64,000 nt of DNA from contig JAJYDC010000008.1 in NCBI GenBank assembly GCA_021777835.1, forward strand, positions 1 to 64,000, read 5' to 3'. A program made the translations under genes and the position numbers. Positions 14,821 through 55,251 of this stretch are shown piece by piece; position 1 is the stretch's first letter, and each line of letters opens with the position of its first letter. Source of the stretch: Bacteroidota bacterium (lineage in GTDB: Bacteria; Bacteroidota; Ignavibacteria; Ignavibacteriales; Ignavibacteriaceae). Under the pieces are notes generated by a model. That model was not told where the DNA came from, made no database searches, and saw nothing but the letters and a program-made list of their open reading frames with translations.

Positions 14821-14892
14821 ATTTATTTTCAATAAGCCTTGATCCAAAGTAATTATTTCTTAATCTTTGCCCCTCATTATTATAACTTCTTT

Positions 14893-14980
14893 GGGCGCCG
14901 GTTAACAAGCAAGTGCCTAACCCCGTCAGATCCGAAAGGAAGCAGCGGTAAGCATGCAGTTTGTGTAGCCGGTTGCCCTT
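14893..14980 (+). ncRNA. ffs: Signal recognition particle RNA (4.5S, small bacterial type)
   Basis: The sequence contains the conserved SRP core GTCAGATCCGAAAGGAAGCAGC followed by GGTAAGCATGCAG, closed by complementary ends (GGGCGCCGG against CCGGTTGCCC), and a T-run directly after the helix. This is the hairpin that binds Ffh. The apical tetraloop reads GAAA rather than the commoner GGAA, still a GNRA loop. It stands alone between the methyltransferase and the small-protein region and is read on the plus strand. Confidence 0.93.
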
Positions 14981-15042
14981 TTTTAATTCTAAAATGTATC
15001 GGACTGAACTAATTTATTATTGCCGTTTCTCTAAAATTGCAT

Positions 15043-46643: not shown

Positions 46644-46759
46644 TCATTATTTTAACTCGTTGCAAAACTAATAATTATCTGACTTTATGTGATTTTTTAC
46701 TTGATAAATACAAAAAGACGGGTTATATTGGAATATAAATTTTAAAAATAGGAGTGTTC

Positions 46760-49615
46760 ATGAAGCAAAAAGTATTTACGTTTCTTGCTATCTCTTTATT
46801 TTCATTGCTCTTCTACTCATGCAGTGCAAATAAAGAAATAGCAAAAGATGAAAAATTAAAAACTGAGAATAATGATCAGCAAAAAGTGGGGATAGTTTCC
46901 GAAATGTTAGAGCAAGCTCGCCAATATTATGTTGCAGCTTTGGCAAAAGAGGAAAAAAATAGTACTAAAGAAACTGTTGCTAACTATGAATCGGCACTAA
47001 GGATCATAAATAACCTCAGCTATTACCCCGGAATTGAACAAAATGAAGCATATATTGAACTCCAAAATTCAATAATTGACGATTATAAAAAGTATGTAGA
47101 TAGCCTTCCAGAACTTCCCAGCAATGTGTCATTTGCTGCGTTGGAAGAGTGGATGGGCAAGTCATTACCCGAAATTAAGGGTAGTCCAGTTGCTAAAACC
47201 ATGGATACATCAAAAGTTGAGGTAAAGTCAGACTTTCCTTTAGTGATGAATTCCTATGTTGAGCAATGGATAGAATATTTTACTGGACGTGGAAGAGACC
47301 ATATGCAGTTGTGGCTTGAAAGGTCAGGCAGATATTTTCCCATGATGAAAGAAATCTTTCATAAGGAAGGTTTGCCTAAAGAACTGATTTATTTGAGTAT
47401 GGTTGAAAGCGGAATGAATCCTACCGCACGATCATGGGCAAATGCAGTTGGTCTATGGCAATTTATTAAATCTACAGGTCATTTATACGGTCTTGAATCA
47501 GACTTCTATTATGATGAAAGACGTGACCCCGAAAAGGAAACTATTGCAGCGGCTAAGCATTTAAAGGATTTATATAATGACCTCGGCGACTGGTATTTAG
47601 TTTTAGCAGCTTATAATGCTGGCGAAGGTAGAATAACCAGGGCAGTCAGTAGAGCCGGAGCAAACGATTTTTGGTCTGCAAGAGAATATCTTCCAAGGGA
47701 AACAAGAAGTTATGTGCCTCAGTTTATAGCCGTAAGTTTAATAGCTATGAATCCTGCAAAGTATGGCTTCACTAATATTCCAATTGAAAAACCTTTCGAC
47801 TGTACTACTTATAGAGTTCAGGGCGCAATTGACTTAAATTATCTGGCAAAATCTGCAGGCGTGGATGTTGAAACTCTTCAGGAAATGAATCCGGAACTTA
47901 CGCAAATGGCAACTCCGGCTAATTTTCCCGGCGGTTACCCTTTAAACATACCAAAGCTTTCTGCTCAAACATTTGCTTCAAATATGGTTAATATTCCTGA
48001 AAGTGCAAGAAGAAACTATCTTGTGCACATTGTGGGAAGAGGCGAAACTTTAGCCAGAATTGCTGCTCATTATGGAGTTTCTAAATTTGAACTAGCAGAT
48101 GCTAATAATATTTCTGTTAGAACAAGATTGTATCGCGGCGTAAGATTACGTATTCCCATTACAAAGCTTTCAAATTCTGATGTAGCTTATAATACTAATA
48201 CACAAAATGCCGAAGACAATTCATCCGATGTTGCTGTAAATTCTGGTAGTGAAGATAGTGCTGTGGAAACTTCGCAAAATAATTCGAGTGATGAATATGT
48301 ATCACCTTATGTAGCATTAAATAAGAGTGAAAAAATTGATTCGACATCCGAAAATGCTGCTACAGATTTAGTTGCCCAAACGGGAAGCAGCGCGAATACA
48401 TCGGAAGATTCAAGCCAAACTGATTTAGCTGAAAATATTCAGGTAGCTGCTAATGGGCTAGTGCCGGTGAATTATAAAGTTAAAAAGAACGACAATCTTC
48501 TTGGTATAGCTGATCTATTCAATACAAGAGTAAGTGATATAAGAAACTGGAATAATATCTCATATACTAGAAGTATAGTCGTTGGACAGAACTTAGTAAT
48601 CTATGTCCCTTCAGATAAAAAAGATTTTTATGCAAGTCTTGATAATCAAACATCACTTGAAAAATCTTCTTTGAGATCAGCCGTAGTTAAAGCAGACAAA
48701 GAATGGATATATCACAAAGTTAGAAGAGGCGAAAGTCTGAATTCAATCGCAGTGAGATATGGAGTCGATATTAACGCATTGCGTGATTGGAATAATATTC
48801 CGGGAAATAAACTTGTTGCAGGAAAGCGGCTAAAGATTTATACGGATCGTTCATTAAAGTACGTTGCTGAAAGTGAAGAAGCTGGTATTAATAAAACTTC
48901 TGTATTTAGATATAAAGTCAGAAGAGGTGAGAGTTTAGGCGAACTTTCAGTTAAGTTTGGCGTACCTGAAGTTGCCATCAAAAGATGGAACCATATTAGC
49001 GGAAATAGATTAACCGCCGGTAAGTTTATTAAAATTTATACGAATAACCGTATTTCATCTCTGGGAGATAATACTTATAAGACTTCGGCAAATATTAATT
49101 ACTATAAGGTTAAACCGGGTGACGCTCTTGGTGAAATTGCCGATAAATTTAAAGTACCTGTATCAAGTATCCGGAAATGGAACGATTTGCGTAGCAATAA
49201 AATTGTTGCTGGTAAACGATTGAAAATCTATTCCGACGCTGATGTCAACGATATTTCTTATAACAGCGGCTTTGCTTCCGGTGTTGAAAGTTATAAAATT
49301 AAGAGAGGTGATACAATTGGAAAGATCGCTGAAAAGTATCATGTTCCAGTCGCCAATCTTAAGAAAATGAATGGTATTAAAGGAAACGAAATTGCTGCGG
49401 GCGAAACTTTGAAAATTGCAAAACCTTTATCAAAGAAAGAAATTGCATACCGTAGAGAGACCTCTAAAAAAACTCCTAAATTCCATAGGGTAACTCGAGG
49501 TGAATCACTTTATTCGATTGCTAGAAGCTATGACTTGTCCGTGAATGAATTGAAATCGATAAATAAAATTTCAGGAAATGAAATTAAAGTCGGACAGAAA
49601 ATAAGACTTGAATAA
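46760..49615 (+). CDS. mltD: MltD-like membrane-bound lytic transglycosylase with seven LysM
   Basis: About 951 residues from ATG 46760 (AGGAG five bases upstream; GTG 46754 adds two residues). Lipoprotein signal ([10 protein letters not shown]), helical spacer, transglycosylase SLT domain with catalytic Glu in [19 protein letters not shown] (Glu216) and [12 protein letters not shown], then seven LysM repeats, at about 410-460, 570-620, 650-700, 715-765, 780-830, 840-885 and 905-951, each with a Val/Tyr..R/K-G-E/D-x-L core. It cleaves peptidoglycan glycan strands at the outer membrane inner face; LysM repeats bind the glycan. E. coli MltD carries far fewer LysM. Confidence 0.95.
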
Positions 49616-49688
49616 AATAAGCAAAGGAAAAATTTACTGAGATTGAAACTCAATAAACTTAAATAACAAATAAATTATAAACCATAAG

Positions 49689-49775
49689 CTGTTAGGGGTG
49701 TTGTCCCGAGTTAATCGCGATGACTGAGAACAAACCCTAGAACCTGATCTGGATAATACCAGCGTAGGGAAACGG
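49689..49775 (+). promoter_or_regulatory. TPP riboswitch (THI element)
   Basis: Contains the conserved blocks of the aptamer: AGGGGTG, GACTGAGA, ACCCTAGAACCTGATCTGG, AATACCAGCGTAGGGAA. The P1 helix pairs CTGTT (49689-49693) with AACGG (49771-49775). It binds thiamine pyrophosphate in the leader of the TonB receptor operon. Placed 75 bases after mltD on the same strand. Confidence 0.97.
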
Positions 49776-49796
49776 GCTACAGAGCAATTAAGACCT

Positions 49797-49824
49797 TAGC
49801 CGTTTCTAAACGGCTATTTTTTTT
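49797..49824 (+). terminator. Riboswitch expression-platform terminator
   Basis: TAGCCGTTT (49797-49805) pairs with AAACGGCTA (49808-49816) and is followed by eight T's. Its 5' arm can alternatively pair with AAACGGGCTA (49770-49779), the 3' strand of riboswitch P1, giving a competing antiterminator. With TPP bound P1 forms and the terminator stands; without TPP transcription continues into the TonB gene at 49839, preceded by AAGGAGG. Confidence 0.9.
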
Positions 49825-49838
49825 CCCAAGGAGGAAGA

Positions 49839-52307
49839 ATGAAATACTTAGTTGCTTTCTTTATTATAATTAATTCCTGCATACTTGCTCAACAAATTAC
49901 TATTGATGGGCGTATTTATGACTCCCAAACTAAACAACCCTTACAGGATGCTAACGTTTCAATATTAAACACATCATTAGGTACCACAACCAAAGCTGAT
50001 GGTTCTTTTCATATTAGCGGAAATATACGCCTTGAAGACTTTTTAGTAGTAAGCTATGTCGGATATAAGACTCAAAGAATATTGCTGACCACAGTAAATA
50101 TTAAGAGAAAATTTGTAGTTAATTTAACCCCTGAAATCATCCCTTCCCAGACAATTCTTGTAGAGGGAAGCCTTGGAAAAGAGGGCACTTCTCCTTTGGC
50201 TTTTGAGAAAATAACTCGTAAGGAGATAAGCGAGAATTATACTGTCCAGGATATTCCCGAATTTCTAGGCTCCTTACCTTCTACCACTTTTTACTCCGAA
50301 AATGGGAATGGTATTGGGTACAATTATCTTAGTATAAGAGGATTTGATCAAAGAAGAATTTCAGTATCTGTAAATGGAATTCCGCAGAATGATCCTGAAG
50401 ATCACAATGTTTACTGGCTGGATTTCCCGGATTTACTTTCAAGTACCGAAGTAATCCAGGTTCAGCGCGGGGCTGGTTCTGGTATCGTCGGATATCCTGC
50501 TATTGGAGGTTCTATAAATATTATTACATCAACTTTCTCAAACACTCCGCAATTGAGCCTTTCGGCTTCAGCAGGTAGCTATAATACTAGAAAGTACAGC
50601 GCTTCATTTTCAAGCGGATTAATTGATAAGAAGTATTCTATATATGCAAAACTCTCCCAAATTTTAAGCAGCGGTTATAGAAACGGTTCATGGACAAATT
50701 TTACGGCATACTATCTCTCGGCTGTTAGATATGATAAGAATTTAACAACCCAGGTTAATTTCTATGGTGGTCCGATTGCTGACGGTTTGGCTTATAATGG
50801 ACTGCCGAAGTTCGCTATAACCGATGTAAACCTTAGGAAAGCAAATTATTCAGATTGGGGAGAAAGCAATAACGCCTACACTTATACCGTGTTACGAAGA
50901 CCATCTGAGGTTGAGAATTTTTCTCAACCACATTTTGAGCTGTTAAATGAGTATCGAATAAATAAAAACATTGTGTTTAACTCTGCCGCATTTCTAGTAA
51001 TTGGCAATGGCTTTTTTAATTACGACGGCTCTTGGGCTGATACAACTATGCTTCGTTTAACTTCCCAGTATGGATTTAATCCTACCCAAAATCCGGTAAA
51101 TACATTAATTAAAGCCGAAGTCGATAATACTCAATTCGGATGGATTCCCAGGCTTAGCTTGAAATACCCTGATGCTGAAATAATTTTCGGTGCAGAATTT
51201 CGGAAGCATAGATCTACTCATTGGGGAAGTATAGCCTTCGGTGAGGAGTTGCCTGTAGGATTAACCAAAGACTATAGATTCTATTATTTTAATGGAGGTA
51301 AGGATATTGTTAATGGATATGTACATGGTACGTTTGATTTAACAAATAAATTAAACCTGCTTGGTGAAATTCAGGTAGCATATCATAAATATACGATTTC
51401 TAACGAAAGATTTCTTCATAATGACTTCTCTATTAGCAATACCTTCTTAAATCCAAAATTCGGAATAAACTACAAGTTCAATAATTCTCAAAACCTTTAT
51501 TTTTCATTTGCACGAGTTTCGAGTGAACCGATTCTTTCGGCTTATTATGACGGAGAAAGCTCTAGCTTTGGAGCTGTCCCGCAATTTCAGCAAAACCCAA
51601 ATGGTACTTATAATTTTAACCAGCCTTACGTGCTCCCTGAAACCATGAATGATCTTGAACTGGGAACTTCTTATATTAAGAATAATTTCCTCCTGACTCT
51701 TGACGTTTATTATATGATATTTGATGATGAAATCGTTAATAATGGGAAACTTGATTTATTCGGACAGCCAATAACTGGCAATATGAAAAGTACACTTCAT
51801 AGAGGAATTGAATTTTCCGGAGTATATAAGTTTAATAAGTATCTCGACGTTCATGCTAATGCAACTTATAGTAGCAATGTTATTCAAAGCGGCGTTTACT
51901 TTATTGATTCCTCAAACGAAATTGATCTTTCCGGAAATAAGATCGGCGGGTTCCCTGATTTTCTTGCTAACATTGGAATATCCTATAAGAATGAGAACCT
52001 TTTTTTACAGTTAAATGGTAAATATGTTGGAGCTTTTTATTCTGATAATTTTGGGAATAACCTTCAGCAGTATCTTATTGAGCATCCGGGATTTGTTGGA
52101 TATTCTGACAATCAAAATGATGCGTATTTTAATGCTGATTTCTTTGCAAGTTATAAGTTGAGTCTATTTGACGCTTTAACTCCTGCAAAAGTATATGTCC
52201 AGGTAAATAATATCTTTGACAAACTTTACTCTGCTAATGCAATCGGCGCAGAATTTTACCCGGCTGCAGAAAGAAATTTCTTAACTGGTATTGAAATAGG
52301 GATGTGA
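49839..52307 (+). CDS. TonB-dependent outer-membrane receptor, probable thiamine/thiamine-phosphate uptake
   Basis: 822 residues: signal peptide ending SCILAQ, an N-terminal carboxypeptidase-regulatory-like beta domain (ITIDGRIYDSQTKQPLQDANVS, about 20-105), the plug (YLSIRGFDQRRISVSVNGIPQ and GAGSGIVGYPAIGGSINI) and a barrel ending in the C-terminal VNNIFDKLYSANAIGAEFYPA region and a final GIEIGM. Under a TPP riboswitch and coupled to thiamine pyrophosphokinase and a symporter, it is inferred to bring thiamine across the outer membrane. The start is supported by AAGGAGG five bases before the ATG. Confidence 0.92.
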   Translation: MKYLVAFFIIINSCILAQQITIDGRIYDSQTKQPLQDANVSILNTSLGTTTKADGSFHISGNIRLEDFLVVSYVGYKTQRILLTTVNIKRKFVVNLTPEIIPSQTILVEGSLGKEGTSPLAFEKITRKEISENYTVQDIPEFLGSLPSTTFYSENGNGIGYNYLSIRGFDQRRISVSVNGIPQNDPEDHNVYWLDFPDLLSSTEVIQVQRGAGSGIVGYPAIGGSINIITSTFSNTPQLSLSASAGSYNTRKYSASFSSGLIDKKYSIYAKLSQILSSGYRNGSWTNFTAYYLSAVRYDKNLTTQVNFYGGPIADGLAYNGLPKFAITDVNLRKANYSDWGESNNAYTYTVLRRPSEVENFSQPHFELLNEYRINKNIVFNSAAFLVIGNGFFNYDGSWADTTMLRLTSQYGFNPTQNPVNTLIKAEVDNTQFGWIPRLSLKYPDAEIIFGAEFRKHRSTHWGSIAFGEELPVGLTKDYRFYYFNGGKDIVNGYVHGTFDLTNKLNLLGEIQVAYHKYTISNERFLHNDFSISNTFLNPKFGINYKFNNSQNLYFSFARVSSEPILSAYYDGESSSFGAVPQFQQNPNGTYNFNQPYVLPETMNDLELGTSYIKNNFLLTLDVYYMIFDDEIVNNGKLDLFGQPITGNMKSTLHRGIEFSGVYKFNKYLDVHANATYSSNVIQSGVYFIDSSNEIDLSGNKIGGFPDFLANIGISYKNENLFLQLNGKYVGAFYSDNFGNNLQQYLIEHPGFVGYSDNQNDAYFNADFFASYKLSLFDALTPAKVYVQVNNIFDKLYSANAIGAEFYPAAERNFLTGIEIGM

Positions 52308-52312
52308 TAAAA

Positions 52313-52966
52313 ATGAAAAAAGGTATAATACTTGCAAATGGGAAAGCACCAAGAAAGAGTGTAATAAACTTTTTAAAAAGAGAAGGTTACTCTGCCTTGA
52401 TTTGTGCAGATGGCGGCGCAAATAGTGCTAAAAAGATCGGGGTCGTGCCCGATTATATTATAGGAGATTTTGATTCTGCATTGCCTGCAACCCTAAAGTA
52501 TTATCAGAATAAAGCAAAAATGGTTCATATAAAAGATCAAAATAGTACTGATGTAGAGAAATGTTTAGACTTTTTAATTATGAACAATTATTCAGAGGTT
52601 GTTTTAACCGGAGTTACCGGCGATAGGCTTGATCATACAATATGTAATCTTGGAATTATTCTAAAATTTTTCACTAAAATAAGCATGAATATTATCGCCG
52701 AAAACTCTTTCTTGAAAGCATATACTGGAAAAGTAGAATTGGATACCATTAAAGGTGAAACTATCTCGATTTATGGATTTGATTCTAAAACAAAAATTAA
52801 ATCAGACGGTCTAAAATACCGTCTTGAAAACATACCTTTACCATTTGGCAAAAAGGAAAGCACTAGTAACGTTGCCTTATCTAAAAAAGTAAAATTAACG
52901 GTTAAAGACGGAATAATTTTTATCATTCGTGATTTTAATATATTGAAAGAAAATGGTCTCTTTTAA
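52313..52966 (+). CDS. thiN: Thiamine pyrophosphokinase
   Basis: About 217 residues: ALICADGGANSAKKIGVVPDYIIGDFDS (parts of the TPK catalytic domain), DQNSTDVEKCLDFL, LTGVTGDRLDHTICNLGI, and a C-terminal thiamine-binding beta domain. It makes TPP from thiamine and ATP. ATG 52313 is chosen over GTG 52304, which overlaps the receptor stop. It ends inside the symporter gene (14-base overlap), so the three genes are a tight operon. Confidence 0.93.
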   Translation: MKKGIILANGKAPRKSVINFLKREGYSALICADGGANSAKKIGVVPDYIIGDFDSALPATLKYYQNKAKMVHIKDQNSTDVEKCLDFLIMNNYSEVVLTGVTGDRLDHTICNLGIILKFFTKISMNIIAENSFLKAYTGKVELDTIKGETISIYGFDSKTKIKSDGLKYRLENIPLPFGKKESTSNVALSKKVKLTVKDGIIFIIRDFNILKENGLF

Positions 52967-54362
52967 ACTAGTTGACTATCTTGTAATTGGCATTTTCTTC
53001 TTGGTAGTCCTAAGTTTTGGCTTTTACTTTGGACGTAGAACTACAAAGGACCCTTCAGATTATCTTTTGTCGGGAAGGAATGTCGGTCTTTTCCTTTTTA
53101 TCCTTACAACTGTTTCCAGTTGGTACGGCGGAATCCTCGGAGTAGGGGAATTCACCTATCGGTATGGCTTACTTAGTTGGTTTACTCAAGGTATCCCTTA
53201 TTATATTTTTGCATTGTTGTTTGCTTTCTTTTTGGCAAAGAAAGTCAGACTAACATCCCTTTATACAATTCCTGATAAGTTAACTTTAGTATATGGGAAA
53301 AACGTTGGACTACTTTCGGCTTTTTTTGTCTTTATCCTGGTCTCCCCCGCACCTTATCTTTTAATGACTGCAAATATTATTTCATTAATCTTTGGAACCG
53401 GAACTCTAATAAGCCTGATTCTTGGGTTGCTGCTTTCAATTTCCTATTTGATTAACGGCGGGTTTAAAGCCAATATTTACTCTGATGTAATCCAGTTTTT
53501 CGTAATGTTCGGTGGATTTATTGCTGCAATATTTTTTGCTTACCATTCTTATGGTGGGATATCTTTCCTTCAACACAATTTGCCTCCTAATCACCTTCAA
53601 TTTACCGGCGGAGCATCTCCTACTTTCATAATTGTTTGGTATTTAATTGCGCTTTGGACTTTTGCAGATCCGGGATTTCATCAGCGAGCCTATGCAGCTA
53701 AAACCGGTAATACGGCTATGTACGGAATAATAATTTCTGTCCTTTTCTTTGCCCTTTTTGATTTCTTAACTACCTCAACAGGCTTATATGCAAGAGCAAT
53801 ATTGCCAAATCTTGCTCAACCAACTTTATCATATCCATTGTTAGCTGAAAAGATATTGCCACCTGGTTGGAAGGGATTCTTTTACGCCGCAATGTTTGCT
53901 ACCATTATGTCTACATTAAACAGTTTCTACTTTTTAAGCGGAACAACTATAGGACGTGATTTTATATTCAAGCTAAGAAAAGTTAGAGACGAAAATAAAC
54001 TAAAATATTATACCGTTTATGGACTTATTTTCTCCGGAATACTTTCAGTTATTTTAGCCTTTTATATCCCTTCAGTGATCCAGCTTTGGTACACAATAGG
54101 CTCTATTTGCATCCCGGGTATGATATTGCCGGTTATTAGTTCATACTATTTGAAGATGAAGATAAATCAAAAAATATTACTTGCTGAAATGATTGCAGCT
54201 TCTTCCGCTAGTTTGATATGGTACTTTGTTAGAAATGACTTTGCTTCTTCTAAGGTTTTAGGTGAAATCGAACCTATGCTTGCCGGATTGTTTGTAGCTG
54301 CTTTATTCCATTTAACAGGAATAATTATTGAGAAATTGATCTCTTGTGCAAAAGTGAAATAA
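52953..54362 (+). CDS. Sodium:solute symporter, candidate thiamine transporter
   Basis: 469 residues with about 12-13 membrane helices, sodium:solute symporter (SSS) family: KDPSDYLLSGRNVG near the start, WYGGILGVGEFTYRYGL, and a central FADPGFHQRAYAAKTGN block. It is the third gene of the TPP-riboswitch operon, after an outer-membrane receptor and thiamine kinase, so it is the likely inner-membrane carrier of thiamine or a precursor. Its end overlaps the convergent TerC gene by 38 bases. The Bacteroidota thiamine operon more often has a PnuT-type permease here. Confidence 0.9.
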   Translation: MVSFKLVDYLVIGIFFLVVLSFGFYFGRRTTKDPSDYLLSGRNVGLFLFILTTVSSWYGGILGVGEFTYRYGLLSWFTQGIPYYIFALLFAFFLAKKVRLTSLYTIPDKLTLVYGKNVGLLSAFFVFILVSPAPYLLMTANIISLIFGTGTLISLILGLLLSISYLINGGFKANIYSDVIQFFVMFGGFIAAIFFAYHSYGGISFLQHNLPPNHLQFTGGASPTFIIVWYLIALWTFADPGFHQRAYAAKTGNTAMYGIIISVLFFALFDFLTTSTGLYARAILPNLAQPTLSYPLLAEKILPPGWKGFFYAAMFATIMSTLNSFYFLSGTTIGRDFIFKLRKVRDENKLKYYTVYGLIFSGILSVILAFYIPSVIQLWYTIGSICIPGMILPVISSYYLKMKINQKILLAEMIAASSASLIWYFVRNDFASSKVLGEIEPMLAGLFVAALFHLTGIIIEKLISCAKVK

Positions 54363-55251
54363 TAATGGAACCGCCTAAAAGCGCCAATATTATAAATAAT
54401 GACACTACACTGGGAATTTTATAGAATTCACTTATCATCATCTTTACACCTACATAAAACAAAATTAAAGCCACCCCATATTTCAAATAAACAAATATGT
54501 CCACAATACCTGCAATTGCAAAATACAATGCACGCAATCCGAGAATTGCAAAAATGTTTGATGTGATTATGATAAATGAATCACGCGTAATTGCAATAAC
54601 GGCAGGAATTGAATCAACTGCAAAAATAATATCTGATGACTCAATTAGAATAAAAGTTAAAAACATTGAAGTTACAAAAACCTTTTTCTTTTCCTTTAAG
54701 AAGAACTTTCTCCCATGATACTCTGAGTTCATATTAAAGTATCTTTTTATAAACTTTATAATCGGATTCTTTTCTAAGTCAATTTTATATTCCGGTGCAA
54801 ATGCCATTTTATAGGCTGCATATAGAAGAATTATTCCGAAGATGTATGTAACTGGCTGAAATAATTTTATTAAGCCTACACCTATAATAATGAATAAGAC
54901 TCTGAATATAATAGCACTAAGTATACCCCATTTTAGGACATGAGGCTGGTTAGCGTTTGAGACATTCATGACCTTAAATATCATTAGAAAAATAAAGAGG
55001 TTGTCTACGGAGAGAGATTTTTCTATTAGAAAGCCCGTTAGAAATTCAATTGCTTTTGTATGCCCCGATTCAATAAAAAAATATATAAAAAGGCAAAAAA
55101 GAAAAGCGGTGCTTATCCAAACACCGCTCCAGATTAAACTGCTTTTTACAGAGATTCTCTCTTTCCTTTTATCGGTTAAATATAGATCGATAAATAAAAG
55201 GATTGCAATTACGATTGCAAAAACAATCCAGGCAAAAATGTTATCGACCAT
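54325..55251 (-). CDS. TerC family integral membrane protein
   Basis: 308 residues, about eight membrane helices, with the TerC signature IEKSLSVDNLFIFLMIFKVM and FVTSMFLTFILIESSDIIFAVDSIPAVIAIT near the middle, whose acidic residues fit metal handling (Alx/TerC exports or balances manganese). It overlaps the symporter gene tail to tail. It is 12 bases downstream of the decarboxylase gene and may be cotranscribed. Confidence 0.93.
   Translation of the reverse strand: MVDNIFAWIVFAIVIAILLFIDLYLTDKRKERISVKSSLIWSGVWISTAFLFCLFIYFFIESGHTKAIEFLTGFLIEKSLSVDNLFIFLMIFKVMNVSNANQPHVLKWGILSAIIFRVLFIIIGVGLIKLFQPVTYIFGIILLYAAYKMAFAPEYKIDLEKNPIIKFIKRYFNMNSEYHGRKFFLKEKKKVFVTSMFLTFILIESSDIIFAVDSIPAVIAITRDSFIIITSNIFAILGLRALYFAIAGIVDIFVYLKYGVALILFYVGVKMMISEFYKIPSVVSLFIILALLGGSIIISLLHKRSISQ

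Follow-up and report, generated by a model that had tools for sequence, protein, structure and literature searches.

In a genome of the order Ignavibacteriales (Bacteroidota; Ignavibacteria), a TPP riboswitch precedes genes for a TonB-dependent outer-membrane receptor, a thiamine diphosphokinase (TPK) and a sodium:solute symporter (SSS), and these very probably form a thiamine salvage operon under TPP feedback in which the symporter fills the role of the carrier PnuT. The arrangement of riboswitch, receptor, TPK and SSS is far beyond chance because it recurs throughout the order, and the symporter is a strong candidate for a true bacterial thiamine symporter. The analysis covered a stretch of 64,000 nucleotides (the window), the 98%-complete host genome that it comes from, a sample of 197 genomes of the class and further genomes of the phylum.

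Riboswitch leader and operon organisation

The leader scored 65.4 bits against the covariance model of the TPP riboswitch, RF00059, above the gathering threshold of 54.3 and with the whole model covered (positions 1-105; E 1.3e-10). It is the sole match to RF00059 in the host genome when the 98%-complete assembly was scanned, and it agrees with the original prediction of a TPP riboswitch, except that the aptamer begins at 49684 rather than 49689. In the minimum free energy fold of the leader, the bases GAAACGGGCTA pair with about 49796-49807, the 5' arm of an intrinsic terminator (TAGCCGTTT/AAACGGCTA) that is directly followed by eight T (49817-49824), and a Shine-Dalgarno-like AAGGAGG is located downstream of the hairpin. 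The terminator hairpin is kept in the relatives L066, L067 and L071, and the same antiterminator complementarity is found in L066 and L067 and partly in L071. As predicted from folding, this layout is typical of transcriptional OFF switches, and the leader presumably acts in that direction. At low TPP, the aptamer's 3' side would be paired with the terminator's 5' arm, allowing transcription to proceed; once TPP is bound, the closing stem of the aptamer would free this arm, the terminator would form and the operon would be turned off.

Table 1. Features of the proposed thiamine operon, in positions of the window.
Feature	Position	Strand	Support
TPP riboswitch aptamer (THI element)	49684..49787	+	RF00059, 65.4 bits, full-length model match
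Proposed antiterminator, GAAACGGGCTA: 3' strand of aptamer closing stem and adjoining bases	49769..49779	+	Pairs with terminator 5' arm in fold
Intrinsic terminator stem, TAGCCGTTT/AAACGGCTA	49797..49816	+	Terminator scan; fold -10.5 kcal/mol
TonB-dependent outer-membrane receptor (OMR/OMthi-like), 822 aa	49839..52307	+	PF00593, PF07715, PF13715
Thiamine diphosphokinase (TPK/ThiN/Tnr3), 217 aa from ATG	52313..52966	+	TIGR01378, PF04263, PF04265
SSS (SLC5-type) symporter, 469 aa, proposed Na+/thiamine symporter	52953..54362	+	PF00474

Plug, beta-barrel and N-terminal CarbopepD_reg_2 domains were identified in the receptor, and thiamine is its presumed ligand. In the relatives, the receptor is the first gene behind the riboswitch, except where the riboswitch controls thiC, thiE or tenA. 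TPK, also called ThiN or Tnr3, turns thiamine straight into TPP. The second gene matched TIGR01378 with 148.1 bits (equivalog cut-off 76.4), is structurally supported by a match to PDB 2omk and TPK structures, and encodes the only TPK of the host genome; its earlier description as a thiamine kinase (ThiN) was slightly imprecise, the enzyme being a eukaryote-like thiamine diphosphokinase. The receptor stop lies 5 bases before the ATG of the TPK gene, or overlaps by 4 bases with its alternative start, a GTG at 52304, and the symporter gene overlaps the TPK gene by 14 bases. RF00059, Pfam, TIGR01378 and the ORF coordinates thus bear out a riboswitch followed by three closely packed genes, as originally predicted. 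In the proposed route, the receptor would move thiamine over the outer membrane in a TonB-driven manner, the symporter would move it over the inner membrane with sodium, and TPK would trap it by conversion to TPP in one step.

The gene just upstream of the leader (46754-49615) encodes a lytic transglycosylase (SLT) of 953 aa whose LysM repeats, about seven, are unusually numerous. At its 3' end the symporter gene runs for 38 bases (54325-54362) into a convergent TerC-family gene on the minus strand (54325-55251), and in L066, L067 and L071 the symporter is likewise followed by a convergent gene of equal size. Elsewhere in the window, a bacterial small SRP RNA was found at 14889-14985 (RF00169, 59.7 bits).

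Structure and family of the symporter

The symporter belongs to the SSS/SLC5 family by both its match to Pfam SSF (PF00474; E 1.6e-30, 106.7 bits against a cut-off of 22.8) and its AlphaFold model, which has a confident LeuT-type SSS fold (pLDDT 95.2, pTM 0.92). The nearest solved structure is that of the choline transporter CHT1 (Z 46.8, rmsd 3.0, 465 residues, 18% identity), SiaT and SGLT1/2 are also near, and the top structural matches are all SSS. The Na2-type pair in the eighth core helix, S320/T321, is kept in at least 90% of 66 homologues and is aligned with the Ser-Ser of SGLT1, and sodium is the probable coupling ion. Alignment of the 66 homologues also revealed two conserved acidic residues, Glu66 and Asp239 (E66 and D239), of which D239 is almost invariant and opens the family motif DPGFHQR (239-245). 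In a profile alignment D239 falls on a tryptophan of CHT1 that we take to belong to the choline pocket, and this aspartate may touch thiamine. We rejected the assignment of the symporter as PanF or PutP, since its NCBIfam scores of 74 bits for PanF (TIGR02119, cut-off 328) and 58 for PutP (TIGR02121, cut-off 515) are far below the equivalog cut-offs.

Gene order in the order, the class and the phylum

Among the 197 draft genomes of the class sample, 192 have a TPP riboswitch, 189 have TPK and 151 have a close homologue of the symporter. TPK immediately precedes the symporter in 108 of the 123 class genomes with both positions listed and in all 34 genomes of the host's order, and on the same strand, at a distance of 3.1-6.8 kb, the riboswitch lies upstream in 73/122 and 32/34, respectively, of those with listed positions. 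As for the two exceptions in the order, the operon of G132 seems to have been broken up at contig ends, and the riboswitch of G190 was not among the matches listed. The expectation that the symporter always follows thiN under a TPP riboswitch therefore holds for the order and fails class-wide, where in several families the symporter is outside TPP control.

The full layout of riboswitch, receptor, TPK and symporter is found in the order and in families f5, f10, f11, f14, f18, f19, f20, f23, part of f12 and part of f13. The riboswitch precedes the receptor alone, with TPK and symporter elsewhere, in f8 and most of f13, and the symporter stands alone in f4, f16, f21, f25, f26 and genome G106, in some families beside unrelated genes. 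Outside TPP control are the symporters of f4, f8, most of f13, f16, f21, f25, f26 and one of f9, and near the detached class symporters that were scanned no TPP riboswitch was above threshold. Such symporters had been named in the original prediction as evidence against the link to thiamine; they occur in some families, yet two of these still pair the symporter with TPK. In a quick tree the class symporters form one discrete family with the detached copies nested among the linked ones, so TPP control has been gained or lost and the link to TPK is the more stable. The unlinked homologues were also considered as paralogues, but this was rejected, as the tree places them within that one family and f13 includes linked as well as unlinked copies.

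A profile built from the 66 homologues was run against further genomes of the phylum and picked up the same symporter family in 26 genomes outside the class, with scores of at least 385 bits. TPK followed directly by the symporter was present in 20/20 fetched genomes of other classes, and a TPP riboswitch stood in front of the pair in 3 of 12 scanned genomes outside the class. Outside Bacteroidota, symporter and TPK genes adjoin each other in reversed order in an Elusimicrobium MAG (L072:5959-7972), and a simple pattern search found no TPP riboswitch at this locus.

Replacement of the symporter by PnuC or biosynthesis

The symporter is missing in 46 of the 197 class genomes, 16 of which have PnuC, 26 ThiC and four neither, and it occurs together with PnuC or ThiC in only three genomes of the sample. 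This complementarity has a Fisher p of 1e-34, a value inflated by the shared ancestry of the genomes; the independent switches are fewer than the genome counts and occurred at least within f9, f12 and f19. In G109 (L099) the order is riboswitch, receptor, TPK and PnuC, with PnuC in the exact place of the symporter, and PnuC adjoins TPK in three more f19 genomes (G043, G168 and G179). The original prediction that the carrier slot of related Bacteroidota is usually held by PnuT is consistent with PnuC in that very slot, and the genomes of the host's order, suspected to be without PnuT and biosynthesis genes, have no PnuC, no ThiC and no ThiE above noise.

The four genomes with neither PnuC nor ThiC constitute family f7, which is also without TPK and has ThiE in three of the four. 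They were considered as counterexamples and rejected, since in G035 and G015, the two that were read, the TPP riboswitches precede paired TenA salvage genes. The TenA genes of f7 (L183-L186) are in tandem, a canonical copy beside a divergent one that scores 54 bits where the cut-off is 130 bits, most cases have two ThiE, and the HMP-salvage lifestyle of this family is worth its own look. G141 is the only genome in which symporter and PnuC co-occur; its PnuC directly precedes a different TonB-receptor-like gene (L110:3775-7047), suggesting that this PnuC serves another vitamin, perhaps nicotinamide riboside.

The distribution also bears on a rival reading, in which the symporter's place in the operon is accidental or serves a side role and its substrate is an unrelated solute (proline, pantothenate, choline or some other cation). 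Although the similarity to PanF and PutP, weak as it is, the choline transporter as nearest structure and the lone symporters of some families would agree with this, the linkage of TPK and symporter recurs in families spread over the phylum, the riboswitch precedes the symporter almost throughout the order, and the symporter is missing just where PnuC or ThiC/TenA routes exist. We consider an unrelated solute very improbable.

Gene content of the host and the likely cargo

In the host genome, a 98%-complete draft, no match was found for ThiC, ThiE, PnuC, ThiT, ThiB or CytX/NCS1. PF04973 (the PnuC/PnuT family) was likewise without a match in this genome, and the slot held by PnuT in the OMthi-pnuT-tnr3 operon is occupied by an SSS. 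The PF08543 search found no clear ThiD in the host; its only match is partial, with 41.6 bits in a 334-aa frame, compared with 150 bits for the ThiD of a congener. The bacterium appears to be unable to make vitamin B1 and dependent on its import via one B1-controlled operon. Since ThiC, ThiE, a clear ThiD, PnuC, ThiT, ThiB and CytX were not detected, thiamine itself, and not HMP, is likely the cargo of the symporter; judging by gene content, HMP would not be usable in the host by any known route, whereas thiamine would be usable through TPK.

A thiamine precursor as substrate (HMP itself or a degradation product like amino-HMP), with TPK merely co-regulated, would parallel the proposal for ThiV of SAR11, an SSS under a TPP riboswitch that is tied to HMP uptake (PMC11452348), and ThiE and symporter are indeed found together in a few class genomes (f18, f23 and f10). 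In the host, however, imported HMP would be useless by known routes, given that ThiC and ThiE are missing and ThiD is represented by a weak partial kinase match, and the constant partner of the symporter, here and across the phylum, is TPK, which acts on thiamine. We therefore regard a precursor as very improbable as well, and the original prediction of a thiamine or thiamine-precursor transporter is supported for thiamine and disfavoured for the precursor, because HMP-using enzymes were not found in the host genome. The least probable cargo is a thiamine phosphate (TMP or TPP), which some bacteria import as TPP through ThiBPQ and which receptor and riboswitch do not tell from thiamine, but for TPP uptake an operon-coupled TPK acting on free thiamine would be superfluous, and the conserved E66 and D239 would fit a cationic rather than an anionic cargo.

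Taken together, the TPK linkage, the riboswitch and the complementary distribution support the SSS under TPP control as a good candidate for a non-standard thiamine carrier, with thiamine as its presumed substrate, and the symporter would represent one discrete SSS family of Bacteroidota in the role held elsewhere by PnuT. We propose more tentatively, as an idea that may well prove wrong, that it is a distinct SSS subfamily for thiamine itself that entered the PnuT slot independently of ThiV/SSSP and holds the thiazolium in a CHT1-like pocket, with D239 replacing one wall of the choline cage.

For SSS carriers under TPP control it is a long-open question whether the cargo is thiamine or just its precursor HMP, and this clade offers a clean test because HMP-using enzymes were not found in the host and the carrier is coupled to the thiamine-using TPK. 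A thiamine symporter would assign a thiamine uptake route to many uncultured Bacteroidota of the Ignavibacteria and other classes, improve the prediction of their auxotrophies and account for a large number of genes whose annotation stops at 'sodium:solute symporter'.

Comparison with known systems

TPP-regulated SSS carriers (ThiV, SSSP, Dur31) are already known; the new elements are a circumscribed family in Bacteroidota, the constant pairing of that family with TPK, its interchange with PnuT, and a host that allows a substrate argument. No description of a TPK-SSS pair in Bacteroidota was found in the literature searched, mostly papers outside subscription. CHT1 (SLC5A7; PDB 9bim, 8j74) resembles the symporter in fold and has an organic cation as substrate, but it differs in substrate and domain of life, and a shared fold is no proof of function. 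The algal SSSP, SSSQ and SSSF and the fungal Dur31, a relative of the urea transporter Dur3 (PMC5997356), are SSS/SLC5 proteins with TPP riboswitches as well (PMC4260697, PMC5997356), but they are eukaryotic, their riboswitches are in introns or UTRs and there is no TPK operon; deletion of Dur31 results in pyrithiamine resistance, taken as thiamine carriage (PMC5997356).

TPP-controlled PanF-like SSS carriers (ThiV) have been known since 2002 (PMC2211319, PMC4260697), with ThiV described from Methylobacillus and SAR11 (PMC2211319, PMC4260697, PMC11452348). Compared by description, the host symporter is likewise a PanF-like SSS carrier under TPP riboswitch control. ThiV of SAR11 is linked to HMP uptake with the rest of the pathway present, whereas the symporter described here is partnered with TPK in a genome that yielded no HMP-using enzymes. 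The residues reported for ThiV/SSSP are Tyr, Asp and Phe at SiaT positions 78, 139 and 254 (PMC11452348); in our alignment of the symporter with SiaT, weak in helices 2, 3 and 6, these positions are occupied by Tyr, Ala and Asp, with Phe-His three residues on from the last.

In the OMthi-pnuT-tnr3 system of Bacteroides thetaiotaomicron (BT2390, BT2396-BT2397), which forms one operon in most gut Bacteroidetes, receptor and carrier have been genetically shown to matter for thiamine uptake (PMC5613172). As in the operon described here, TPP riboswitch, TonB receptor, inner-membrane carrier and TPK/Tnr3 are united under TPP control; the carrier there is PnuT and here a sodium symporter, and B. thetaiotaomicron has a complete biosynthesis operon in addition (PMC5613172).
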